Shown here: positions 15,786 to 55,435 of the stretch, piece after piece
Layout: every line of letters starts with the position of its first letter
Position numbering within the stretch: the first letter of the stretch is position 1
Assembly: GCA_021802055.1 (NCBI GenBank)
Contig: JAKAAY010000009.1
Span: 1 to 60,870 of the forward strand
Direction of reading: 5' to 3'
Source of the DNA: Thermoplasmata archaeon
Lineage (GTDB): Archaea; Thermoplasmatota; Thermoplasmata; Thermoplasmatales; Thermoplasmataceae
DNA length: 60,870 nt
Program-made: the position numbers and the translations under genes
Notes under the pieces: generated by a model
What the model was told of the DNA's origin: nothing
Databases searched by the model: none
Seen by the model: only the letters and a program-made list of their open reading frames with translations

Positions 15786-16220
15786 CTATGAGACCAGGCG
15801 CAACTGGGAACTGACCATCTTCCCGAAGAGTTCCGCATCTCTCTCAGGTGACGTGCTGGGTAAAAGTGGATCCTTTGAGACCTTGAAACAGTCAAACATA
15901 CGCAAGAAATCAATCATGGTGTTTTTGGACTCATACAGGCATACAGCACTCCTGGTATCTGGCCTTATGCCTGCCTTTGTAATGGCATTTTTTATCTGGT
16001 GCTCACCGGAGACAAGACAGAGAAGGAGGAGAGGCTTGCTTCTTATTCTTGCCAGGTTCCTGATGCGTTCTAAACGTTCAGTCGCAAAGATCAACTGCTC
16101 CTCGGAAATGAGCGCCGAAACGTCAATCAACTGAAAAAAATTTTTCAGGCCTCTGGCGTATTCGACTATGTCCTGGACGGGCAAAATGGTCTCGGAAACG
16201 AGGTACTGAATCTCATACAA
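15786..16220 (-). CDS. cgi121: KEOPS complex subunit Cgi121
   Basis: Cgi121 binds tRNA and the Bud32 kinase in KEOPS, the complex that makes N6-threonylcarbamoyl-adenosine at position 37 of ANN-decoding tRNAs. This 144-residue protein has the family core: [15 protein letters not shown] near residues 55-69, a basic strand [22 protein letters not shown] at about 75-98, then an ITKAGI turn. The SGE-Q-I segment is particularly typical of Cgi121/TPRKB. Its start overlaps the end of lon by 8 bp. The other KEOPS genes (kae1, bud32, pcc1) are not in this window. Confidence 0.85.
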
Positions 16221-18180
16221 CGTTGGGCCCTTGCCTGCCAGAAACCTTTCCGGACGGTATCTTTGGCCCCAGCAGCGACCCTATGCGATCGAAGAAGGTC
16301 TTTCTCTCCGGAGTAGAAACGAGAGCATTCTCAAGCACTTCCATTATGCTGGAAACCGGAACAATCTCGATTTTGTCCTTGTGGGCCTGATCAAGTATAA
16401 CATCCTCAACATTAGAGGCAGGTATGAGGACTTTTTTCAATCCTGCCTCGATTGCAGCTTCCACTTTCGCAGTAACTCCACCAACAGGCAGCACATTGCC
16501 TCTCACGCTAAGCGAACCTGTCATGGCGATCTCCTGATTCACGGGAATATCTTCAATGGCTGAGATGACAGCAGTGGCTATTGAAACGCTTGCGGAGTCT
16601 CCTTCAACCCCTTCATACGTTCCGATGAACTGTATGTGAATGTCGTGATCCGATATGTCGTCCCCGGTTATCTTCTTGAACACAGCAGATACATTCTGCA
16701 CAGCTTCCTTGGCTATCTCACCAAGCTTACCCGTTGCAATCACGCTGCCATTTCCCTTATGCTGCGATGGAGTGACTTCAGCAACTATTGGCATCAGGAC
16801 TCCCGTGTAATCGGACATTCCAGTATCCGCTCCAACCACAGCAAGGCCATTGACCATGCCCACACGGTTTCCTTCAGTAAGGAATGTTTTGTAAGATTTC
16901 TTGATCTCCACTGAGCGGTCAGCAACCTGTTGCTCCAGAGGTTTTGCAAGGTTCTTCGCAGCCACCACATACTTGGCGGAAACAAGTTCTGCCTTCTCTG
17001 AAATGGCTATATCGCCAGAAACACGTATGAGCCCACCAAGTTCTCTCAGTCTGAGAGTGAGCTTACCCTTCCTCCCGGATCTTCTCTGGGCCTCTTTGAT
17101 AATCTCCACAATGGCAGACTTGTCGAAATGAGGGATTTTCTTGTCTTTAACCACTTCCTGGGCAATGAACTGAACAAGCTTCCTCCGGTTCTCTTCGGTG
17201 TCTTCCATGGTATTCTGCACGTACACCTCATACCCGTAACCACGTATCCTTGATCTGAGTGCGGGGTGCATTCCCTGTATAGCGTCAAGGTTTCCTGCAG
17301 CCACAAGGACAAAGTCGCATGGAACCGGCTCAGTCTGAACCATCGCACCGGCCGACCTCTCGCTCTGACCAGATATTGGGAATTTCTTCTCCTGCATGGC
17401 AGTTAGCAGAGCCTGCTGACTTTCCAGCCTGAGCAGGTTGATTTCATCCACAAAGAGGACACCTCTATGGGCCTTGTGTATATTTCCTGCCTCAACCCTG
17501 TCATGAGACGGTGTCTCAAGTCCGCCTGACTGAAATGGATCATGTCGTACGTCACCGAGGAGGGCTCCAGAATGCGCTCCGGTGGAATCGACAAATGGTG
17601 GCTTATCATTTGTGGTATGCGAAACCAGCAGCTTCGGAGCAAGATTTCTCTCAACCCTGAAAGCCGGGTTGAACGCAAGTGCCATATACAGTATGGCTGC
17701 CGCTATAAGAGCCATGAAAACAACAAGAACATCATCAAGATAGATGGCAAGCAGTACTCCACCAATAAATACAGTCAAAATAACAAAGACAAGGCTCCTG
17801 GATCGCTCCCGCTTGTCACGTTCTGCCCTGATCTGGTACTGCCTGACTATCTCCTTCCCCTTTCCCGCAGGGAATGTTTTTATCTTGGGCTTGTTGTTGT
17901 CTTCCGGGTTTGGAAAAACAACGATGTCTTCAAGCTCCTCCTTGGGCAGGAAATCAGTCATGGACTGCGCAAGCATGGACTTGCCAGTACCTGGATCGCC
18001 AATAAGCAAGACATGACGCTTCTGCAGCGCCGCCTTTTTTACTATATATGAAGCCTCGTCCTGGCCGATCACCTGATCGAACAGTATCTTGGGAACCTGA
18101 ACATCCTTTGTGCTGGTGATGTCCAGTGACTCGACGAAGCTTTCTACATTTTCCAGACTATCCGTCACAATAGTTGACAT
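16213..18180 (-). CDS. lon: membrane-anchored ATP-dependent protease LonB
   Basis: Archaeal LonB is an AAA+ serine-lysine protease held in the membrane, and it degrades unfolded and regulatory proteins. Walker A GDPGTGKS is at about 61-68 and Walker [12 protein letters not shown] near 245. Two membrane segments inserted in the AAA domain lie at about 130-172. The protease domain has [10 protein letters not shown], with the catalytic Ser, and a Lys about 43 residues later in [15 protein letters not shown] start it at ATG 18180, not the TTG at 18192, because a TATA-like agtattaattg lies 20-25 nt upstream. The protein is 655 residues, normal for LonB. It leads an operon with cgi121. Confidence 0.94.
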
Positions 18181-18192
18181 TGAATCTCGCAA

Positions 18193-18657: not shown

Positions 18658-19761
18658 ATGTCTTTTACAATAGGACACTCTCTGAAACTTACCATTTTCG
18701 GGGAATCGCACGGCCAGCTCGTAGGGGGAACTCTTGATGGCCTCCCATCGGGGATACGAATATCCATGGAAGAGATAAACAGATGGATGTCGCTGAGAAG
18801 GCCTTCACAAAGTTTTATGACATCGCAGCGCAAAGAGGACGATTCAGTGGAAATCGTAAGTGGTGTGGAGGCCGGATATTCCAACGGAGGCCCAATCACA
18901 ATCCTCATTAGAAACAGGGATGCCATAAGCAGTCATTACGACGAACTGAAATACAGGCCTCGCCCTGGTCATGCAGATCTGACATCATTCTACAAGTACG
19001 GAGAACACAGGTCTTACTCCGGCGGAGGCTTCCTTTCGGGCAGACTCACTGCTCCCATGGTCGCCATAGGTTCTATCACGATTGGGGTCCTGGAAACGTT
19101 GGGCCTGCACGTGATTTCTGCGATTGATCGCATAGGAAGTATAGTTTCAGGCAATGCCCCGGAAGGGCCCATGGACGCTTATTCTTATCTCACCAGGATT
19201 CCAGAAAGGGAAAAGGATGCGGAGGCACAGTCTCTGATTCGTGAACTCCTTGGGGCCGGCGACAGCATTGGCGGGTCAATACACACACGCGTTAAAGGGC
19301 TCCCCCCGGGGTTAGGGGAACCCGTGTTCGACTCTCTGGAAAGCGTCATCGCCCATGCGATGTTTTCCATTCCGGCCGTTAAGGGAGTGGAATTCGGCAC
19401 CGGTTTTGGCCTTGCAAGCATGCGCGGTTCTGAGGCAAACGACCAGTTCGAGTTCAACGGAAACAGCATAATGAGTTCCACTAACCATAATGGTGGGATA
19501 CTGGGAGGCATTTCAAGTGGAATGGATATAGAGTTCAGGGTCGTGGTGAAACCAACATCGTCAATAAGGATTCCGCAGAAAACGGTGGACCTTAGAACGA
19601 AGGAACAGGTGCGCATCTCCGTCACGGGGCGCCATGATCCATGCATAGCCATCAGGGCGGTACCTGTGGTCCAGACAATGACGTCCCTGGTTCTGGCTGA
19701 TGTCCTCCTGGGATCAGGATTCGACCTGTCAGGCAAGCAAAAGGTAAAAGGGAAGGAATGA
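18658..19761 (+). CDS. aroC: chorismate synthase
   Basis: This enzyme converts 5-enolpyruvylshikimate 3-phosphate to chorismate, the last common step to aromatic amino acids, using reduced FMN. The N-terminal GESHGQLVGGTLDGLPSG contains the catalytic His. YRPRPGHADLTSFYKYG and the GGGFLSGRLTAP segment form the FMN/substrate site. The late NHNGGILGGISSGMDI is also diagnostic. The 367-residue length is normal. A TATA-like box lies about 38 nt before the ATG. No other aro genes are nearby. The 3' end overlaps the convergent DUF2070 gene by 33 bp. Confidence 0.95.
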   Translation: MSFTIGHSLKLTIFGESHGQLVGGTLDGLPSGIRISMEEINRWMSLRRPSQSFMTSQRKEDDSVEIVSGVEAGYSNGGPITILIRNRDAISSHYDELKYRPRPGHADLTSFYKYGEHRSYSGGGFLSGRLTAPMVAIGSITIGVLETLGLHVISAIDRIGSIVSGNAPEGPMDAYSYLTRIPEREKDAEAQSLIRELLGAGDSIGGSIHTRVKGLPPGLGEPVFDSLESVIAHAMFSIPAVKGVEFGTGFGLASMRGSEANDQFEFNGNSIMSSTNHNGGILGGISSGMDIEFRVVVKPTSSIRIPQKTVDLRTKEQVRISVTGRHDPCIAIRAVPVVQTMTSLVLADVLLGSGFDLSGKQKVKGKE

Positions 19762-21456
19762 AAGCACAAGAGACCCCAGAGACGTTGCAATGAGGTAGTA
19801 TTTGGACTTGCGAATCGAAGCAAATACCACACTCTGCAGCTTTTGGAATATCCTCTTCTCACCCATGTTTACAGTGACCTGCGCCTCTCCATGGAATAGC
19901 TTTACCTCTTCCACCGAGTGCAGTGATTCTTTAACGCATTTGACAACATTGGCAGAAATCTTATCCTGGTCGTCCCTCTCTCCAAGAGGATTCATGTCCA
20001 GGGTATTCCTGTTTACAAAGTGGTTGTCTGTGGTGTAAATCTCCAGCGAATCCACCACGCCTCCTAGAAGCTTCCTGGATTCTTCGATAATCTCTTTCCT
20101 GATATTGTTTGAATCGGTAAGCACAATGGCATCTTTCCTGCCGTCTGAATCGCTCACATAGCACTGGATTCCCATGCTACCGAGTCCCGGTGTCTCCATG
20201 GCCACCCTGGCATAACCGAACCTGGGTATGCACTTGTCCTTGAGTTCTTCGGCAGCCTTTATGATCTGATCCTTCACCGGGGCTATGTTCTCGATGGGAC
20301 CAGCCCGGTGAGAAAAAAAGTTCTGTGCATCGACTATTACTGCCTGTTCTGCACCGCTATCCTTTAAAGCTGCAGCAAGTTTCAGCCCCTCGTCCAATTC
20401 TATGTCATCAAATGCTTTTTTCTCCGGCACCAGGGCGCACAGAATGAACCCTCCGAACTTCTGAAGACCAGCGACGTACTCGCCTGCGTCTATCTTCGTG
20501 AATGCTGAAATAGTCGTGCTCTCTCTTGCCACATTTATGGCAGCCCTGACTCCCGAGGCTACGGAATCGACGTCGCTGTCGCCGCCACAGTTGTTGCTGT
20601 TGGTGGTAGCGGTATGGAAAACCATTATCTCGTTGGTCAGGTCAGAAAGTCTTGCCTGTAGTTTTGCTGGAAGATTTGAGCTTCCCACCTCCCCAAACGG
20701 TCCAGGATGGATATACGGGAAAACCATGAGGAATTTCCTATCCCCATTGAGTCTCCTCACGTCTACTACTGACACGGGGATCTCCCTTGAAAAAGAATAT
20801 ATGTCGGAGAAGAAGTCAAGGCCATCCTGGTGCTCCCGGCCCATTGAATGCATGTTCAGGAACATGTTCATGACCTTAACAGGGCTCCTACCGAATTCCT
20901 TGCGAAAATCGCTCATGCTGAGATGGGCAAATATGAATCCGGACAGTGAGAATATTATGGCTGCGGCCAGACCCACTGCGAATGGAAGCGGGCTCATCTT
21001 GTAAGCCAGGAAGATTGAAGCCTCGCCCAGAAAGAAGGTGAGAGACGGCAGAACGGATTTCCATACAGTATCTCCATAATACACATAGAAGACCATGGAC
21101 TTGACGTAGGAAGTGAACGAGAATGCATAGAGCAACAGGTAATCCATGCCGAGACCGCCGGCATGGAAGATCCCAAGGACCCAGAATAGCCCGGAACAGA
21201 TACTGAGCACAAAGAAATTCAGGTAGAACACACGCCGGATGGGAAAATAGAATTTGCCCACTCTTATGACCCATGCATCCAGGAGGGATACGAGAGCAAA
21301 GCCTCCGATCACCATTATAAGAGAAAATACAAGATCACTGGTGAACAGATAATCGAGGAGGGAGATAATGATTAGAGGCACCGGGTACATCCTGTACCTC
21401 GGCGCCCTTCTCAGGAACTTGGACAGGTCAGCAAAGGTTCTCTCAAAATCTGCCAT
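19729..21456 (-). CDS. DUF2070 family membrane protein
   Basis: This is a 575-residue archaeal protein with about six or seven membrane segments in residues 20-190, then a large soluble region and one closing C-terminal membrane segment. The soluble region holds the family hallmark YIHPGPFGEVGSSNLP near 245-260, and also HTATTNSNNCGGDSDVDS with several possible metal ligands. The His-Pro-Gly-Pro loop and clustered Asp/His suggest a metal-dependent activity, but no DUF2070 function is known to me. It could process a membrane-associated substrate. Its last 33 bp are antisense to the end of aroC. Confidence 0.88.
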   Translation of the reverse strand: MADFERTFADLSKFLRRAPRYRMYPVPLIIISLLDYLFTSDLVFSLIMVIGGFALVSLLDAWVIRVGKFYFPIRRVFYLNFFVLSICSGLFWVLGIFHAGGLGMDYLLLYAFSFTSYVKSMVFYVYYGDTVWKSVLPSLTFFLGEASIFLAYKMSPLPFAVGLAAAIIFSLSGFIFAHLSMSDFRKEFGRSPVKVMNMFLNMHSMGREHQDGLDFFSDIYSFSREIPVSVVDVRRLNGDRKFLMVFPYIHPGPFGEVGSSNLPAKLQARLSDLTNEIMVFHTATTNSNNCGGDSDVDSVASGVRAAINVARESTTISAFTKIDAGEYVAGLQKFGGFILCALVPEKKAFDDIELDEGLKLAAALKDSGAEQAVIVDAQNFFSHRAGPIENIAPVKDQIIKAAEELKDKCIPRFGYARVAMETPGLGSMGIQCYVSDSDGRKDAIVLTDSNNIRKEIIEESRKLLGGVVDSLEIYTTDNHFVNRNTLDMNPLGERDDQDKISANVVKCVKESLHSVEEVKLFHGEAQVTVNMGEKRIFQKLQSVVFASIRKSKYYLIATSLGSLVLSFLPFYLLLA

Positions 21457-21507: not shown

Positions 21508-22578
21508 TCATTCCTCGAAACGAACGAGCGGAACCAGCCTGAAGTAGCCATAACCAAAAAGAACCCTGATAAACCCCGGTATCTGCATTTCAGGATCAAT
21601 GTCCAGAGCAAGGCGCTTAAGGCTGTTGAGCTTCCCCTCCCCTGCAATGACCAGTATGTTGTCAAAGCCGATTCTGTTGAGGACTCTGGCGGATATCTGT
21701 CTGTTTCCCCTGCCCAGCAGGAATCCAAGTCCGCCTACGGGTGACAGAATCAAGGTGGTTTCGGGGCTGGAATATTCGTAGAGCTCAGCTTCTGGAGCAT
21801 CACTCACAACAATCCTGCCGTCTCTCATAATATCAAAACCGAGGCGCTCGGTGTGAAATCCCAGCCGCTCAGTTACCTTTTTGCACGTCGAGCCAGGTCC
21901 AACGAAGTAGAACTTGTCCCTATCCATTGAATTAACTATATAATCAACCGCACCTTCGACATCATCCTCAGGGTATTCAGATTTGGATTGGGTAGAAGAC
22001 ATGGAGTCTATCACAACTCGCATCTCCCCGTACGAGTTGATCTGGTAAATGCCTGTTTCAAAGTACTTCCGGTCGAGGTCTGCCACCTCGCCATTAACGA
22101 TCCGGTAGCCATCACCACGCAGGAAAGCCTCCAGCAGAAAGGCAGCATGTCTCTCATCCAGTGCAAAGACCGAGCTATACATCTTCATGCCCGCTGGTAT
22201 GCCTATGACAGGGACCTTCATGTCTATTACTGCCGCTGTATCGGCTGCAGTACCGTCTCCACCGCAGAAGACAACCAGGTCCGGAGATTCCTTCATTGCA
22301 GCTTCCAGAAAGGTTCTCGTATCAAGAGAATCCGTTATTTCCTTCGGAGTGAAGATCTTCTTCTGATTGAAGCCTTTACCGGACGCAACATCCTCACCCA
22401 TGATGCCTGCCGGAACGAGCATTGCAAAATTTCTTGTCTTCAGACTCCTGAGAAAATTCTCCGCCCTTTTTACGGAGTATGGGATTTCAGAACGGGATAC
22501 TTTCACCCCTGCAGAATCCTTCAGATTATACAGCAAGCCAGCACCGGCTGTGGGGTTCACGAAGAAAGCCACCTTCAT
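21508..22578 (-). CDS. ATP-NAD kinase family protein
   Basis: The 356-residue protein has the NAD-kinase/diacylglycerol-kinase fold. VFCGGDGTAADTAAV near 105-120 is the phosphate-donor loop, and VIGIPAGMKMYSSVF follows. An N-terminal FFVNPTAGAG and late SPVGGLGFLLGRGNRQ match the long ATP-NAD/AcoX-type kinases common in archaea, rather than the short NadK. I prefer the ATG at 22578, where the family begins, over 22596. The reaction is presumably NAD phosphorylation, but members of this subgroup are little tested. It sits 6-24 bp downstream of the site-2-protease-like gene and may share its transcript. Confidence 0.85.
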   Translation of the reverse strand: MKVAFFVNPTAGAGLLYNLKDSAGVKVSRSEIPYSVKRAENFLRSLKTRNFAMLVPAGIMGEDVASGKGFNQKKIFTPKEITDSLDTRTFLEAAMKESPDLVVFCGGDGTAADTAAVIDMKVPVIGIPAGMKMYSSVFALDERHAAFLLEAFLRGDGYRIVNGEVADLDRKYFETGIYQINSYGEMRVVIDSMSSTQSKSEYPEDDVEGAVDYIVNSMDRDKFYFVGPGSTCKKVTERLGFHTERLGFDIMRDGRIVVSDAPEAELYEYSSPETTLILSPVGGLGFLLGRGNRQISARVLNRIGFDNILVIAGEGKLNSLKRLALDIDPEMQIPGFIRVLFGYGYFRLVPLVRFEE

Positions 22579-22602
22579 GTGAGCAACGTTGCCCACATAT
22601 GT

Positions 22603-24318
22603 TCAGGGATGATATACGTTCAGGATCACCGCATCGTAACCGGGAGTGATAAATGCAATGCTGGCACTCTGAAAGGGAGTGTAAAATTCAAACCACAATT
22701 CGATACTTGATCCGTGAGGAAGCCTCATCTGGTTGAGCATAAGGAACCCATTGCCAGCGAGCGTTGTATTCCCGTATATGGTGGTATTGACCTTGACCGA
22801 ATATGCAACATGAGAGACAGAAAAGAGATACATGGAAACATTCTGGGTAACCGGTCCATGGTTGGCAAGTACAACAGGAAAAGCCTCATTTTGCCCAATA
22901 ATCACGGAATATTCTCCGAAACTCCCGTTAATGGTCAGGTTGAGACTTGTCTTCACATACTGGATGCTGACGTTGACGGATGACTTCACAACTCCTGAAT
23001 AAGCAGTAATTACGTAAGAATGCAGGCCCGTTGAATTAATGGACCCTGGAAACAGGGTGATATTGTATAAATGGTCCTGTCCAGGTGAGAGGGCTTTTCC
23101 AGCGGAGCTAACTGCAAAAGGCACCGTGGGTGAAACGGCAAAACCCGGAGTAAATGAGTGGTTACCTGTATTCAGTACGGAGATCTCAAAAGTGGACGAA
23201 CTGTCGATCCCCATGATGCTCACAGATGAGGTGCTTATGGCAGAAACTTTCATGCTATCCAGGTACTGGTGGGTCGGAACCGGGACCAAAGTAAGAATTG
23301 CGGCCAGGACAATAACAGCAAAAATGGCTTTCTTGTTCAGCGGGATCGGCGATCTTGAATTCAGGGGCTCCGGGCTCTGGTATCCGGTTATGAGTACCGC
23401 AACCGGCAGGATGATCAGAAAAGTCAGAAACAGTCCCACGAGAACCAGCCCAATGGTGATAAGCAACTGGTAGGATCTCAGCCTGCTTCCTGCAACTGCT
23501 CGCCATACGAGACCGCCGTCCAGATTTCCAAGGGGTAAACTGTCAATGGCACTTATTATGACACCTGCCCAGCCTGCAAATTCAATGGGTGAAAAAACTC
23601 CATTTGCAGGTACCACCGCTTCCAGCACAGGGGAGAAAAGCAGCGGATTTCCGAGCCGCAGGTATTCAGGTGTTGCCACCGATGGAGAAGCATGGTATGG
23701 GAGGCTGATTATGGTTCCCAGGGAAACCAGAAGAAAGGACGCAACATAGCCCATGAGTATCGGCAGCCCACCCTGCTCAAGCATCTCCCTTCCGTTTCTG
23801 AAAGCAGAGCCCTGCGTGGAGACGCTTCCAGCAAATCCAAGGAGTATTGGGTTTGGTATCATAACGGGAAGCTCATATTTCCTTTCATATCGTGCCGATG
23901 CAATAAACCTGCCAAACTCACGGAATCCGATGAAAAAGAGCATCGGCACAGCAAAGTACATGGTTGCAAGGAACAGGTCTGGGAATATGCCCCCCTCCGA
24001 GTAGTAAGCAGACACGTACTGGTATCCTGCGAATATTATTGATGCCAGAGTGAGCAGAAAGGCAATCAGCTTGATCCTGAAATGCCTGGAGTCCTGTTTT
24101 CTGGCCTTTACAAAGAATATCTGTGCATTTTCGGATCCAGCGGTGAATAAGGTATACCCCCGTGAGGCAGCCAAATCGTTGAGGCGGTTGAATATTTCAT
24201 CCCTGACGATCGATTCCTCAAGCGAAATTTCAAGAGAATCCTGTGTGGAACTGTATCTGATTATGGTGAGCAGTTTCCCCGCCTCCTCCAGAAAGAAGGA
24301 CACATCGTCTTCGTTCAT
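22603..24318 (-). CDS. site-2-protease-like (M50) membrane protein with altered active site
   Basis: The 571-residue protein has a soluble N-terminal domain (about 1-75), a polytopic M50-like core (about 80-320) and a C-terminal extracytoplasmic part of roughly 220 residues with beta-rich, Asn/Ser-rich repeats. Active M50 proteases bind zinc through HExxH and a distant LDG. Here the first motif reads FREFGRF, so both His are Arg while the Glu is kept. The second, SLPLGNLDGGLVW, is intact. Loss of both His should abolish zinc binding, making this a probable pseudoprotease that binds or sorts membrane proteins. The lesion is in an open reading frame of normal length, so it is not random decay. 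It starts 12 bp after the stop of alaS. Confidence 0.82.
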   Translation of the reverse strand: MNEDDVSFFLEEAGKLLTIIRYSSTQDSLEISLEESIVRDEIFNRLNDLAASRGYTLFTAGSENAQIFFVKARKQDSRHFRIKLIAFLLTLASIIFAGYQYVSAYYSEGGIFPDLFLATMYFAVPMLFFIGFREFGRFIASARYERKYELPVMIPNPILLGFAGSVSTQGSAFRNGREMLEQGGLPILMGYVASFLLVSLGTIISLPYHASPSVATPEYLRLGNPLLFSPVLEAVVPANGVFSPIEFAGWAGVIISAIDSLPLGNLDGGLVWRAVAGSRLRSYQLLITIGLVLVGLFLTFLIILPVAVLITGYQSPEPLNSRSPIPLNKKAIFAVIVLAAILTLVPVPTHQYLDSMKVSAISTSSVSIMGIDSSSTFEISVLNTGNHSFTPGFAVSPTVPFAVSSAGKALSPGQDHLYNITLFPGSINSTGLHSYVITAYSGVVKSSVNVSIQYVKTSLNLTINGSFGEYSVIIGQNEAFPVVLANHGPVTQNVSMYLFSVSHVAYSVKVNTTIYGNTTLAGNGFLMLNQMRLPHGSSIELWFEFYTPFQSASIAFITPGYDAVILNVYHP

Positions 24319-24330
24319 CAGATTCCCTTT

Positions 24331-27030
24331 CTACAGATTCAGAAGTTTCCTAATTAAACTTTCATCCATTTTTTCCTGCGTACGGAATTCTATCATTCTG
24401 CTGTTTCTCGATATAAGTTCAAGCCCGTCAGATAATCTCAGCGATTCTACGCCCTTGCCGTTGCCAACGATGGTATAGCCACCTGCGCCAATATCGCTCC
24501 TCGGGGCTATCAAATAGGTGGTTTTCTTTATACGGAGCAACCTGGGGATGAGGGCATTAATCTCCCTGGATTCAAGCGGCGTTTCCACCATGATGGCTGT
24601 GGTTCTGCCTGTACCTTTCAATGGTTTGGAGTGTTTCAGCAGAAGGTCTGCAATGGTTCCCGAAGACCTCTCCGTGTACTTTGATGACGACCCGAACTGA
24701 CTTATGAAATTCTCAAGTCTCGATGGCAGATCAGCAAGAGACGAAGACAGGTATGACTGCATTCTAGAGGAGACTGCCTCGATCTCCCTTGTGTACCTCA
24801 GGGCCGCAGGTCCGGCAGCGAAAATGACACGCTGAATACCCTCCTGGATCGTCTCTGTGGATATTATCTTGATGAACCCTATCCTTGACGTGTTATCAAG
24901 GTGGGTACCGCCGCAGCCTTCAGCATCAACGCCTTCAATGACGACCACTCTCACCTTGGAATCCAGTGGGACTCCTCCCTGGAACAGCCTGAACCCGTAT
25001 CTCTGTAGCGCTGCATTCCATTCCACATTTTTCGCAAGTATGGATCTGCCCTGGGTTATATACTCTAGACACCTGTTCTCTATTCTCGTGACGTCTTCCC
25101 TGGTCAGCTTGTCATAATGGGTTATGTCAATCCTCGATGTATCGAACCCCTTCTGAACCCCGCTCTGCCACACGTGATTTCCAAGAATCTCTCTCATCAC
25201 GCCGAGAAGCAGGTGGGTGGCAGAGTGGTGTACCATGTGCTGCCACCTGCGCTCATAATCGATGATGCCTTTGACTCTCGACTTATCTGGTATATATCCA
25301 TCAATGCGGTGAACAATGGTCTTTCCCAATTTCTCCACCTTCTCCACCCTGATCTTTTTGCCACCGTATTCAAGATATCCAGTGTCTGAAGGCTGTCCTC
25401 CGCCTTCAGGATAGAATGCAGTCTGATTCAGAACAACTATTCCGTCTCCTGAATAGATCACGACACCGGTGAATTCACGAATGCTGGTATCATCGTAGTA
25501 TAGAGTTCTGGTGGGGAAATAAGGGATATGCTCCTCCTCTTTCCTGGCTGGGGGCTTCTTGTCATGCAGTAAAACCACTCTCTCATGGAAATCGTCTGGG
25601 ACGCGCAGGTTCTCTCCTGTAACCTCCTTGACAACTTCTGCTACGAAGTCCGGTGGGAGGCCCCCGGAATCATACAATTTTATCATGTCATCATCGGAAA
25701 TGCTCTTGGCCTTCTGCAGAATCCTCTGGATCTGGGACTGGCCCGATTGCAGGAGTGATTTGAGCTTTTCCTTCTCCCGTTCGATCATGTTCGTGGCAAA
25801 GGCCTCATCAAAATGTTCCAGTATGTCGGAGTACTGGATTCTCTGAAGCCTCACGAGATCTTCCAGCCCGAGGCGGAGAGATATACTGTCGGCAGCCCTT
25901 AAGGCTCTCCTTGCGATGAGCCTGGCCAGATACCCAACCTTCACATTTGAGGGTATCACGTAATCAGAAAGCAAAAATAGGAGGGTTCTGGAATGATCTG
26001 CGAGAACGTAGCACGATCTGGCATACTCAAACATTTCTGAAAGGTTGTCCGCGTCAATCCTGCTTTTCCTGTGGTACTGGTCAATGGTCTCCTGCACCAC
26101 CACAGATTCAGGTTTACCCTCCATCTTCAGGAAGTTGTTAAGCAGGAGGTCCATGAAATCTTCCGGTGGAAACTTTCCTGTTGAGTTCTCTCTTATGGTT
26201 TTGAGTATTTCGGGATATACCGTTTCAAAGATGGTCATTGAGCCACTGGATAGCCAGCTAAGCCTTTCGAGGCCGTAACCAGTGTCAACCACGCTCATGG
26301 GCATCTTAGAATATCTGACGCCGTCCAGCAAAATATCTCCTTCGGGGTCCTCCTTCAGGTCCATGAAGACCAGGGTGGCGACTTCGAGTCCTGAAATAAG
26401 TACCTCCATGGCGTTACCGGCATTTCCGCCGCCTGCCCATGGCTTTTCCTTGTAGACTATTCTCTTCTGCTCCACCCCAAGCCGGGTGGTGAGAAATTCG
26501 TTGCACAGTCTTACTGTCTCATTATTCCAGTAAACGAATTTATCGGGGTAATTGAATGAATCGTGGCACATCATCTCGAAGCTGGTGAGATGCCGTCCAG
26601 TTATGCCCACTTTATCCACGTCCAGCATTCTTATGCATGGCTGCGACATAACAATGGGATTTCCCGGAGGGGCTGCATATCCACCTGTGACCTGTGGCTG
26701 AAAATCATAGATGGATGCATTGACCAGGAGAACATCCTCTCTCCATCTGGGAACAACGGGGTATGGTTTGACAAACTGATGGTCATGGTCGAAGAAATCC
26801 ATGAAAAGCTTCCTCATTTCCCTGACAGAGACAGGCCCCCTGTTAATGGGTCTTCCAATGAAAGTATAGACGTCGCACGGTGGGTCCCCGCATACCCTTC
26901 TCTCGTCGTCTGAAGTCCAAAAAAAGGAGCCGCAGATTATGCACTTTCTGCGTTTCATCTCAAGGCTGTGAAAAATCTCAAGGTCAAAAGGCCCAACTTC
27001 CTCCATCGGTCGCAATCCTCGCAAATGCAT
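24331..27030 (-). CDS. alaS: alanyl-tRNA synthetase
   Basis: This class II synthetase charges tRNA(Ala) and hydrolyses mischarged Ser/Gly-tRNA. It has an archaeal N-terminal extension with a Cys-rich segment (CIICGSFFWTSDDERRVCGDPPC, split zinc-like ligands near residues 34-56). A catalytic core from about 60 to 450 follows. The editing domain is intact: FYPEGGGQPSDTG, HHSATHLL and GCGGTHLDNT supply all zinc ligands. A C-terminal dimerisation region ends at residue 899, a normal length. It is the functional counterpart to the metal-less AlaX-like protein at 1827-2546. A TATA-like ttatttaacc lies upstream. Confidence 0.95.
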   Translation of the reverse strand: MHLRGLRPMEEVGPFDLEIFHSLEMKRRKCIICGSFFWTSDDERRVCGDPPCDVYTFIGRPINRGPVSVREMRKLFMDFFDHDHQFVKPYPVVPRWREDVLLVNASIYDFQPQVTGGYAAPPGNPIVMSQPCIRMLDVDKVGITGRHLTSFEMMCHDSFNYPDKFVYWNNETVRLCNEFLTTRLGVEQKRIVYKEKPWAGGGNAGNAMEVLISGLEVATLVFMDLKEDPEGDILLDGVRYSKMPMSVVDTGYGLERLSWLSSGSMTIFETVYPEILKTIRENSTGKFPPEDFMDLLLNNFLKMEGKPESVVVQETIDQYHRKSRIDADNLSEMFEYARSCYVLADHSRTLLFLLSDYVIPSNVKVGYLARLIARRALRAADSISLRLGLEDLVRLQRIQYSDILEHFDEAFATNMIEREKEKLKSLLQSGQSQIQRILQKAKSISDDDMIKLYDSGGLPPDFVAEVVKEVTGENLRVPDDFHERVVLLHDKKPPARKEEEHIPYFPTRTLYYDDTSIREFTGVVIYSGDGIVVLNQTAFYPEGGGQPSDTGYLEYGGKKIRVEKVEKLGKTIVHRIDGYIPDKSRVKGIIDYERRWQHMVHHSATHLLLGVMREILGNHVWQSGVQKGFDTSRIDITHYDKLTREDVTRIENRCLEYITQGRSILAKNVEWNAALQRYGFRLFQGGVPLDSKVRVVVIEGVDAEGCGGTHLDNTSRIGFIKIISTETIQEGIQRVIFAAGPAALRYTREIEAVSSRMQSYLSSSLADLPSRLENFISQFGSSSKYTERSSGTIADLLLKHSKPLKGTGRTTAIMVETPLESREINALIPRLLRIKKTTYLIAPRSDIGAGGYTIVGNGKGVESLRLSDGLELISRNSRMIEFRTQEKMDESLIRKLLNL

Positions 27031-51151: not shown

Positions 51152-54100
51152 GTGTCGAAGAAAATCTCATCGATCATTTACGACATCAACTATGCCGACC
51201 AGGATCAGCCCTTCGACAAGAATTTCCAGAAACTTCAGGAAGGTCTGGAGGCCTTTGTCAAATCTGGGGAGGATAAGCCTGACAGCAACCTCATTGAATC
51301 CATTAAGCTCTTCTTTGAGAACCAGTCCATTGCGCCGGACAAGAAAGTAAGGATCATAGACATTCTGAAAAAGAGCCAGAATCTGAACTTTCTGGCAGTG
51401 GTGCTGGAATTAAATCTATTCATAGGGTCTGGAATGAAGAGAGAAGCCTTTGACCGGATCGTTACGGACCCCAGATTCCGAACATACGATGGAACTGTCA
51501 ACCTCCTGGTCAACTCAATCTCAACCGATGATGACTATCCTGTGGCGACAACATTCCTGTCGGAACTGGGCGTGTTCCGGGATGATATTTTCCTGAGGAC
51601 TCTTGAACTCACGCAGGAAAGCGGCTTCTGGGAGAAGATCACCAACAACCTCAAAAACTCCGGGAAGCGAATGGAATACATTGACTACCTGGAATTCAAG
51701 CTGGTGCACCTAAAGGATCGTTCCACGGTGAGTGAGTTTGTCGGAGTTCTTTCAGCGATTGGCGATTGCCAGAAGGTTACTGAAAAGCTGGCAGCCCTGA
51801 AGATGGAAAGGATCACGGAAACAGAGGATCTTCTGAGTCTCTCAAAACTTTTTGAGCAGTGCAGGGACTTTGAGAACGCACTCAAGGCGACAAGGGCTGC
51901 ACTGTCCAACGATCCCAAGAGACTTGAAACCAGGCTCTCGCTTGCCGGGGTTCTCTCAGTCCTAGGGAGAAATGCCGAATCCTATAAGATCCTGCAGGAA
52001 CTGCATGCGGATTATCCGGACAACAAGGACGTGCTGAAGCTCCTTGTCCGCGAGGCATATGCATGCAACGACTATGGCGAGTTTCTCCGGTTTGTTTCCA
52101 TCCTTGAGCCGGGCGATATATCATTATCAGACATGGAGCACAAGATAGACTCAGAGATCAGGGAATCAAGATACGATGATGCTGAAAAGGACATAAGGAC
52201 GGTTCTTTCGGGAAACCCGACAAACCTCAATGTCAACAGAATGAAGCTTAAACTCCAGATCTCGCTGGGAAAAGAAAGCGAGGCTATGGAAACAGCAAAG
52301 ACGCTTGTGGGTATTGATCCTAATGACAGGGATGGCGCTGAGTACATCCTGAGAGGTCTCTATGAGAGGAAGGAATTCACTCAGTTCATTGAAAAATTCA
52401 AGCAGGTGGGATACAGGTCCGAGGATATGACAGCCATGTTTGCGGCGTCGCTGCTGAATACAGGAGATCTGCGAGGTTCCATAGGGATCATGAAGTCCAA
52501 TCCTGAGGTCCTGTCCAGAGGTTATTTTCTGGATGCAGTGTTTCGCATCAGCAGGATGGAGGAGGATCTCTCAGCCATGGAAGCGGAAACGCAGGCCATT
52601 AAATCCTTTTCAAGGAATTTTGATATTGTTTCAGGTTTTCTTAGGGGGTTCATGGATTTTGACCTCTCCGAACTCCTGAATGCCGCGACTGCCACTTCAT
52701 CCGTAGCCATTGGATGGGTTGCATGCCTCAAGGGAATTGACTTCAAGTCCAGGACTGTTCCCGGAGAACTGGATAAGATGATGTCTAAAGCCCATTTCGC
52801 TGGCCTTAGAATTCTCACAAAGACCATAACGGACATTTATGCAGGTAACTACCGGGAAGATATCCGAGACTCCTCGTTCTTCATGTATCCCGTCAGCACG
52901 GTTCTTCTGGAACTTGGCAGGACAGACGATGCTGCTACCAAGATCGAGGAATCCTATGACAAGAGGAACCCTGATCCTTTCTACTTCTTTGTAACATCCA
53001 GATTACAGGCGGCAATAAACGACTACACAAATTCACTTAAGTCTGCACGCAAAGCAATAGGGGCTTTGCGGAACAACAGGTTCATCAACCACTCCATACA
53101 GATATCGCTCAAGGCTGGGGATCGCAATGCTCTTCTCTGGTCCCTCAACGAACTGAAGGAACTTGGCAGAGAGGAAGCGTTCCCGGCAGAGCTGGTTTAC
53201 GGCTACATTGCGGCCCACGGGGACGACGAGGTGCTTAAAGCTGCATTCGACGTACTTGAACACGACGATAGCCGTGACATCTGGATAAACCGCATAAAAA
53301 GAGACTGGTTGTTGAAAAATGGACGAGGATCTGAGGCCTTACCATTCTCAGAAAAGATCGTAAACAACAGGGAGGCTAAACCGGAAGATCTTGCCCTGCA
53401 TGCGGATATCCTGGTCAATTCAGGAAAAGCTGCTGATGCCGTGCAGTTCCTGGCGACGAGGGTGGGAGAAAATCAGCACCTCATCATAAAGCTAGCTGGC
53501 ATACTGATGTCCCTGAAGAGATACGATGAGGCATCGGTGCTGTACTCCAGAATTGACCTGTCTGCTGTCTCAGGAGACACGCTATCCAATTTCTGCGTGG
53601 CCCTCATGGAAACTGGTGATTATGCCGGGGCCAGAACTCTCATAGAGAGATACAATCTGGGCACTCTTTTGCAGGGAAAACTGTACCTGAAGTCGAGAGA
53701 CCTCGCTGGCATCCGGAGCATCCTGGGCAATCTGAACCCCTCAGACACCGATCAGCGATCGCTGCTCTCCGAGATTGCGAAACAGATGTTTCAGAACAGC
53801 GAGATACGCTCTGCAATTCTTGAGATTTATAGGAAAAGCGGCTCTCTTGAACTCGGGGACGCGATTGCCGATCTACTTGAAAATTCCGGAAATCTTGATC
53901 AGGCGTCCACAATCAGGAAGGCCATATACAGGAAGAATCCAGAGGATTCCAAGAACCTGTGTAGGCTTGCTGACGATTATGAGGGCCAGAAGTTCTTCAG
54001 CGACGCAGTTGCTCTATTAAGGAAATGGCTCAAGACAAAGGCTGACAGTAAAGATTTCGGGCAGGTGGTGTCCAAGCTCATTGAGATGTACTTTAACAAA

Positions 54101-54814
54101 GGATTTTATGAGGAGGCGATCTCGACGTTTGAGACATTCAAGCAGATTCCCGACTCCAAAACCCTCATGCTTGTGATACGAAGTTACATGGAAATCCAGG
54201 AGTATGAAACAGCAGACTCCCTTCTGGGGAAATACCAGGACACTCTCATTGACAGCGACCTGCTGACGGAACTCAAGGAAGAGATGGCACTGCGCAGGAA
54301 CTTCTTCGAGATCGTGAACCTCACCCGGAGACTACTGGTCACCGAGTTTAAACTGGGCCGTACGCTGGAGATTTCGGAAGCGGTCTCTGTGGCGGAAATC
54401 CCACTGGACACAGTTGACCTGGTTTACCAGTTTCTTGGAGAAACCCAGTACTATGAGGACATCAATGAAACCAAATATGAAATGCTATCTGCTGACATCA
54501 TTCAAAGGTCGGTCAAACGCAGGAACCTGACATCGATTCATGAGTTGAAGATCAACATCATCTATGGCGTGATGCAGCGTCCCAATGTGCTGGTGGCGAA
54601 GAACATGTACCTTTATGTGAAGGGTTCGGTTGAAAAGAAGTGGAAGATCACCACGGAAGACCCGGAACTTAACAAGCTGCTCAGAAGTGCACTCAGGGCT
54701 GGTCTAAAACCAGAGCCGCTCCAGGTAGCATATGAACTTGGCGTTGGAATTTCCCAGGCCATGAAAGTCATCCGGCTTATGGAGCATGTGGCCAGAATCA
54801 GCGGTGGGTCCTGA
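51152..54814 (+). CDS. giant TPR-repeat protein (1220 aa)
   Basis: This long, soluble, helical protein is built of many TPR-like repeats. One clear block is at about residues 225-315 (LLSLSKLFEQCRDFENALKA, then LSLAGVLSVLGRNAESYKIL), another at about 880-1010. There is no signal peptide or membrane segment. The last 55 residues (LLRSALRAGLKPEPLQVAYELGVGISQAMKVIRLM) look like a winged or helix-turn-helix element. The start is a GTG at 51152, with a TATA-like tatactata about 35 nt upstream. It may be a scaffold for a large complex. It runs directly into an M50 protease gene with no gap, so the two likely act together. Confidence 0.8.
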   Translation: MSKKISSIIYDINYADQDQPFDKNFQKLQEGLEAFVKSGEDKPDSNLIESIKLFFENQSIAPDKKVRIIDILKKSQNLNFLAVVLELNLFIGSGMKREAFDRIVTDPRFRTYDGTVNLLVNSISTDDDYPVATTFLSELGVFRDDIFLRTLELTQESGFWEKITNNLKNSGKRMEYIDYLEFKLVHLKDRSTVSEFVGVLSAIGDCQKVTEKLAALKMERITETEDLLSLSKLFEQCRDFENALKATRAALSNDPKRLETRLSLAGVLSVLGRNAESYKILQELHADYPDNKDVLKLLVREAYACNDYGEFLRFVSILEPGDISLSDMEHKIDSEIRESRYDDAEKDIRTVLSGNPTNLNVNRMKLKLQISLGKESEAMETAKTLVGIDPNDRDGAEYILRGLYERKEFTQFIEKFKQVGYRSEDMTAMFAASLLNTGDLRGSIGIMKSNPEVLSRGYFLDAVFRISRMEEDLSAMEAETQAIKSFSRNFDIVSGFLRGFMDFDLSELLNAATATSSVAIGWVACLKGIDFKSRTVPGELDKMMSKAHFAGLRILTKTITDIYAGNYREDIRDSSFFMYPVSTVLLELGRTDDAATKIEESYDKRNPDPFYFFVTSRLQAAINDYTNSLKSARKAIGALRNNRFINHSIQISLKAGDRNALLWSLNELKELGREEAFPAELVYGYIAAHGDDEVLKAAFDVLEHDDSRDIWINRIKRDWLLKNGRGSEALPFSEKIVNNREAKPEDLALHADILVNSGKAADAVQFLATRVGENQHLIIKLAGILMSLKRYDEASVLYSRIDLSAVSGDTLSNFCVALMETGDYAGARTLIERYNLGTLLQGKLYLKSRDLAGIRSILGNLNPSDTDQRSLLSEIAKQMFQNSEIRSAILEIYRKSGSLELGDAIADLLENSGNLDQASTIRKAIYRKNPEDSKNLCRLADDYEGQKFFSDAVALLRKWLKTKADSKDFGQVVSKLIEMYFNKGFYEEAISTFETFKQIPDSKTLMLVIRSYMEIQEYETADSLLGKYQDTLIDSDLLTELKEEMALRRNFFEIVNLTRRLLVTEFKLGRTLEISEAVSVAEIPLDTVDLVYQFLGETQYYEDINETKYEMLSADIIQRSVKRRNLTSIHELKINIIYGVMQRPNVLVAKNMYLYVKGSVEKKWKITTEDPELNKLLRSALRAGLKPEPLQVAYELGVGISQAMKVIRLMEHVARISGGS

Positions 54815-55435
54815 TTGTACACCATAAACCAGTTTGACAGGGAGGAGGCACGCGATATTGGCATCAGCGTCCTTGCACTGTTTGTGGGTGTTACAGTGAT
54901 CGTTTACATCCATTACCCTAGGGGCATTTTCTCCCCTGGAGGACTTGCTGCCTTCAGTCTTGCCGCTGGAGCATTGACAGCCGGGACAGGTTTTCTGCTG
55001 CATGAGCTTGCCCACAGGCAAACCGCCCGTCATTTTGGTGGTTTTGCGAGGTTCAGAAAGTGGGATCTGGGAATCATCATGATCCTGATCACCAGCCTTG
55101 TGGGATTTCTTTTTGCAGCACCCGGGGCAGTTTACTTCACAGGTATATATGACAAAAAGCAGGTCGGGATCATCTCCGCTCTTGGACCAATCACAAATAT
55201 GGTGATGGGTTTGATCCTTTTTACGGGCGCAGTTCTGACTGCAGGATCACTATTCATATCCGGCATCCTGCTCTTTGCAGGGCAGATAAATCTCTGGCTC
55301 TTCCTGTTTAACCTCATACCTGTATGGCAACTTGACGGCGCCAAGGTTTTCGCATGGAACAGGGAAGCATTCGTCACACTCTTTGCAATCTCGATCCTTC
55401 TATTTATTCTAACATCTGCCTATCTCGTCTTCTGA
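54815..55435 (+). CDS. site-2 protease family (M50) membrane protein
   Basis: The 206-residue compact M50 protease has the zinc motif HELAHRQTARHFGG near residue 64 and the third ligand in LIPVWQLDGAKVF near 165-178. Both are intact, unlike the protein at 22603-24318. About six membrane segments are predicted. The start is a TTG at 54815, immediately after the stop of the TPR gene, so translation is coupled. Such enzymes cleave membrane-embedded regulators or signal peptides. The likely partner is the TPR protein. The C-terminus lacks a PDZ domain. Confidence 0.87.
   Translation: MYTINQFDREEARDIGISVLALFVGVTVIVYIHYPRGIFSPGGLAAFSLAAGALTAGTGFLLHELAHRQTARHFGGFARFRKWDLGIIMILITSLVGFLFAAPGAVYFTGIYDKKQVGIISALGPITNMVMGLILFTGAVLTAGSLFISGILLFAGQINLWLFLFNLIPVWQLDGAKVFAWNREAFVTLFAISILLFILTSAYLVF

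Follow-up and report, generated by a model that had tools for sequence, protein, structure and literature searches.

The window considered here, the whole stretch of 60,870 nucleotides from a Thermoplasmata archaeon, contains on its reverse strand an open reading frame that is a homologue of the site-2 proteases (S2P, M50 family), with RExxR where HExxH is expected. In the following we will refer to its product as the altered S2P. Its parts, its neighbours and two further M50 genes are listed below; coordinates are those of the window, except in the last line.

22603-24318, reverse strand: open reading frame of the altered S2P, 571 aa, ATG start
24094-24318, reverse strand: soluble N-terminal alpha/beta domain, residues 1-75, probably on the cytosolic side (model; alignment with active relatives)
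23284-24093, reverse strand: S2P membrane core, residues 76-345 (core model; sole confident PDB match mjS2P, 3b4r)
23908-23922, reverse strand: RExxR in place of HExxH, read as F-R133-E134-F-G-R137-F (sequence; orthologue alignment)
23821-23865, reverse strand: predicted membrane-reentrant beta-hairpin, residues 152-166 (models; conserved P155, P157, G161 and G164)
23512-23523, reverse strand: LDGG motif, residues 266-269, with invariant D267 (alignment)
22606-23283, reverse strand: C-terminal tandem Ig-like beta-sandwiches, residues 346-571, probably on the extracellular side (model; fold search)
24331-27030, reverse strand: alaS, the immediate upstream neighbour, conserved across families (gene maps)
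21508-22596, reverse strand: ATP-NAD kinase-like gene, the downstream neighbour within the family (gene maps)
54815-55435, forward strand: small intact M50 gene with HELAH and LDGA, not a close paralogue (Pfam M50, 29.7 bits, cut-off 27.2)
G000:C25:64658-65689: short HExxH S2P, 369 aa, the close paralogue in the source genome

The two arginine codons of the motif, read directly from the sequence, are CGT and AGG. Since no histidine codon can be reached from AGG by a single change, RExxR is no single sequencing slip. The Asp of LDG (D267), the third zinc ligand, is present, and a scan of the entire 571-aa protein found no HExxH elsewhere. The Pfam M50 profile matched 23/23 members, the score of P0001 (18.1) lying below the cut-off of 27.2, and a single-sequence PDB search with the altered S2P gave no useful match. 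Profile comparison by hhalign aligned the altered copies with the HExxH families over 552 columns, outer part included (100%, E 2.6e-76).

At the structural level, the fold search with the full-length model (mean pLDDT 80, pTM 0.66) showed that the outer part resembles tandem Ig-like domains. Such matches dominated this search, and the core was therefore modelled separately (pTM 0.84). With the core model, Foldseek returned two mjS2P chains (3b4r) as the only confident PDB matches (probability 1.00, TM-score 0.43-0.56); a rhomboid fold was not seen, the confident fold matches being to S2P only. Altogether, the altered S2P has both the core fold and the profile homology of an S2P, and its core is predicted to have kept the S2P fold. 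In the model the beta-hairpin directly follows the motif helix, at the same place as in known S2Ps, where the re-entrant loop is the substrate-binding element (PMC4597795, PMC11486902). The hydrophobic segments and their basic flanks suggest that the N-terminus lies inside and the C-terminus outside. The preliminary description had claimed that both zinc-binding histidines were replaced by arginine with the Glu and LDGG kept, and that a soluble N-terminal domain and a C-terminal beta-rich part were present; the codons and the alignment confirm the former and the structure model the latter. It had also raised a nearby alternative HExxH, of which there is none in the protein, and correctly located a second, intact M50 gene at 54815-55435.

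This small M50 gene was considered as the paralogue of the altered S2P and rejected, a closer paralogue being encoded on contig C25. It adjoins a gene for a 1220-aa TPR protein (boundary at 54814/54815; both within 51152-55435), an arrangement that suggests joint action of the two products.

All 77 genomes analysed from the host's family of acidophilic archaea, which includes Acidiplasma aeolicum and the uncultured archaeon ASS_A1, gave matches, and the long copy was found in nearly all of them. For the motif count, 80 distinct entries without HExxH were aligned, 77 of them readable at the motif; the other three comprise one copy containing undetermined bases, one fragment that does not cover the motif and, from genome G057, the broken short copy. 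Every readable long copy of the family (77/77) carries [R/K]Exx[R/K], with no intermediates and no HExxH (0/77). The first motif position is Arg in 75 copies and Lys in 2, and the fifth is Lys in 46 and Arg in 31 (n=77). The motif Glu is invariant in 77/77, as is D267 in every full-length altered copy. HExxH was present in 50/50 other aligned copies, namely short paralogues and the long copies found outside the family, all with LDG[G/S]H, and in 70/70 copies from further families in the order and the class; these two sets share a few entries and together comprise roughly 115. The swap is thus family-wide and, in this sample, confined to the host family. Fixation of RExxR in orthologues, which the preliminary description had proposed to check, therefore holds in the form [R/K]Exx[R/K]. 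HExxH orthologues at the same position, which it had named as counter-evidence, do exist in sister families, but they do not refute the proposal; they give the direction of the change, which took place once and is fixed in the family. A second long altered S2P, likewise without HExxH, was seen in two genomes (L182, G085:C1:140843-142543; L220, G086:C66:1736-3067).

To find the loci of relatives, alaS served as an anchor. Among loci with enough flank, it lies directly upstream in 46/48 altered copies and in 17 of the 19 long HExxH copies; the two exceptions among altered copies (L178 and L181) both belong to genus g6. As the altered S2P and the HExxH version of the sister families both stand behind alaS, the zinc ligands were lost once, at the ancestral locus. 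Two genes away from the altered S2P lies a DUF2070 membrane protein gene (window 19729-21456), which likewise occurs near an HExxH version in another family of the order (L064, 4200-5924). A LonB-type protease is encoded at window 16213-18192, in a neighbourhood also present in L061 and L062; it would conceivably matter should the altered S2P act on membrane clients.

The short HExxH S2P shares the N-terminal domain and the membrane core with the altered S2P, but its active site is intact, the outer Ig-like part is missing and the gene lies at another locus. Compared with the long HExxH copies found in sister families, the short copy is about 36-47% identical and the altered one about 24-28%. 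Most class-level HExxH copies measure 450-650 aa, indicating that the ancestor had an outer part, which then disappeared from the short copy. This is a reciprocal loss, of HExxH from the long copy and of the outer Ig-like part from the short one, and hence probably a division of labour. In the careful tree, the altered clade and the short HExxH clade each have a single origin (support 100/100) and are not sister, although grouping them is not rejected (p-AU 0.31); quick trees join the two with support of 13 and 88. Both copies co-occur in 35/35 genomes that are at least 90% complete, the short one of G057 being split. In this closed genome the short copy lies in two distant pieces, one of them at the contig end (L233, G057:C1:695000-696800, and G057:C1:1935067-1935168), by either a rearrangement or an assembly fault. 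In the class-level family f11, S2P is missing from most genomes, and G202 encodes an HExxH version of 364 aa that lacks the outer part (L292).

Regarding selection, altered copies were compared in pairs, and where dS was usable the core dN/dS values were about 0.01-0.19, mostly below 0.1 (lowest about 0.013) and usually lower than those of the outer part. Such low core values indicate purifying selection on a protein that is not decaying. The zinc ligands are lost yet the gene is conserved by selection, as expected of a pseudoprotease.

The active-site surroundings have changed as well. Q265, H270 and H315 are lost in altered copies, the position of H270 now being taken by varied, mostly hydrophobic residues and that of H315 by varied, mostly small ones. 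Only Arg or Lys is found at both former histidine sites, even though a single-base change in a His codon mostly yields some other residue, and the restriction to basic residues therefore looks selected. Across the 74 full-length altered copies, R/K133, E134, R/K137 and D267 are the only conserved charges deep in the predicted membrane helices; other frequent charges sit at the helix ends. Another His/Cys metal site in the core was ruled out, as no conserved His or Cys column was found in the core of these 74 copies, 22 of which have no core His at all. By residue count, the two basic and two acidic side chains would balance, replacing zinc, two His and one Asp, and they are presumably in contact. 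In the hairpin/loop region, R170, P172 and G186-P187 are degraded, so that substrate binding may differ.

Taken together, family-wide fixation, purifying selection and fold strongly support the view that this S2P homologue, with its beta-rich outer part, is catalytically dead. As to its role, we think it likely that the altered S2P is a fixed zinc-free S2P pseudoprotease with a salt-bridge core, which serves membrane segments as a receptor or chaperone and does not cut them. A gene duplication would have been followed, before the family diversified, by a single swap of both zinc histidines to Arg/Lys in the copy at the alaS locus. This copy would have kept the S2P membrane fold with its re-entrant hairpin, the residues E134 and D267, and the Ig-like outer part, and the other copy would have retained catalysis and dropped the outer part. 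R133 and R/K137 may then pair with E134 and D267 in a charge-neutral salt-bridge core replacing the metal site, and a transmembrane segment could still dock on the hairpin but would not be hydrolysed. Zinc-free SpoIVFB still holds Pro-sigmaK uncut, the substrate adding a strand to the re-entrant loop (beta-augmentation; PMC11486902); by analogy, a permanently zinc-free S2P could do likewise. Thus the altered S2P would bind, stabilise or present membrane segments, its Ig-like part might sense or bind something extracellular, and clients might be handed to, or shielded from, the short active S2P as a putative partner. An iRhom-like role, in which membrane substrates are bound and their fate controlled, is plausible.

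In falling likelihood, the rivals are a heteromer, a pure anchor and metal-free catalysis. The first, a special case of the receptor/chaperone reading, makes the altered S2P a subunit that regulates the short HExxH S2P, with client recognition and catalysis split between the two. We regard it as possible but somewhat unlikely: the reciprocal loss of two ancestral features and the presence of both copies in all near-complete genomes are in its favour, but the two genes are unlinked, and the closed genome G057 has an intact altered copy beside its split short one (where an assembly fault may be involved). Less probable still is that the altered core only anchors the N-terminal and Ig-like domains in the membrane, its ability to bind transmembrane clients having been lost. 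The outer part is indeed retained in altered copies and gone from the active short ones, and the hairpin/loop sequence is partly degraded; however, the core is usually under tighter constraint than the outer part, and a plain anchor would need neither invariant E134 and D267 nor fixed in-membrane charges.

The third rival turns the two invariant carboxylates of the membrane core, E134 and D267, into the catalytic pair of a metal-free, acid-type intramembrane peptidase, with pKa values tuned by Arg/Lys, as a replacement of zinc catalysis by carboxylate catalysis in acidophiles. We consider this very improbable, because Q265, H270 and H315 are gone from the active site; moreover, the two basic neighbours would lock the carboxylates in salt bridges, and the S2P fold offers no precedent. 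Finally, a decaying relic or sequencing artefact, which could explain the missing catalytic His pair, H270 and H315, is rejected, as 77/77 copies are open, full-length and [R/K]Exx[R/K] under strong purifying selection.

Returning to the altered S2P as a putative receptor or chaperone, one of its closest comparisons is the long HExxH S2P of the sister families, which shares the alaS locus, the domain order and the 552-column profile match but has intact HExxH and LDGGH and occurs as one copy per genome. mjS2P (3b4r) and SpoIVFB share the S2P core fold, and SpoIVFB retains substrate binding when zinc-free; unlike the altered S2P, they are active zinc enzymes with CBS domains. The rhomboid pseudoproteases iRhoms and Derlins are dead intramembrane protease folds that bind membrane clients (PMC3149277, PMC8641752). 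They offer a comparison in the way of working only, being eukaryotic and of an unrelated serine-protease fold.

A family-wide swap with a known ancestral state at the locus and reciprocal losses amounts to a natural experiment on a non-cutting S2P fold, and the altered S2P predicts that a buried network of salt bridges can take the place of a zinc site. In the case of the plant EGY proteins, a soluble N-terminal domain precedes the core as well. Pseudoproteases are known among rhomboids; among S2Ps, the literature found holds only EGY3 of plant chloroplasts, which was called the only S2P-family pseudoenzyme, in plants only, in 2022 (PMC9355673). An archaeal or bacterial S2P pseudoprotease was not found in the open-access literature. 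Like the altered S2P, EGY3 is an S2P homologue without HExxH that is conserved in its lineage beside active relatives, EGY1 and EGY2 (PMC9355673, PMC10978774). The altered S2P differs from it in the fixed [R/K]Exx[R/K] and in the outer Ig-like part, and the archaeal clade presumably arose separately. With EGY3 described as the sole S2P pseudoenzyme, the altered S2P would be a new, prokaryotic variant and, as far as could be checked, would represent the first prokaryotic S2P pseudoprotease clade, distinguished by its charge-swapped motif.
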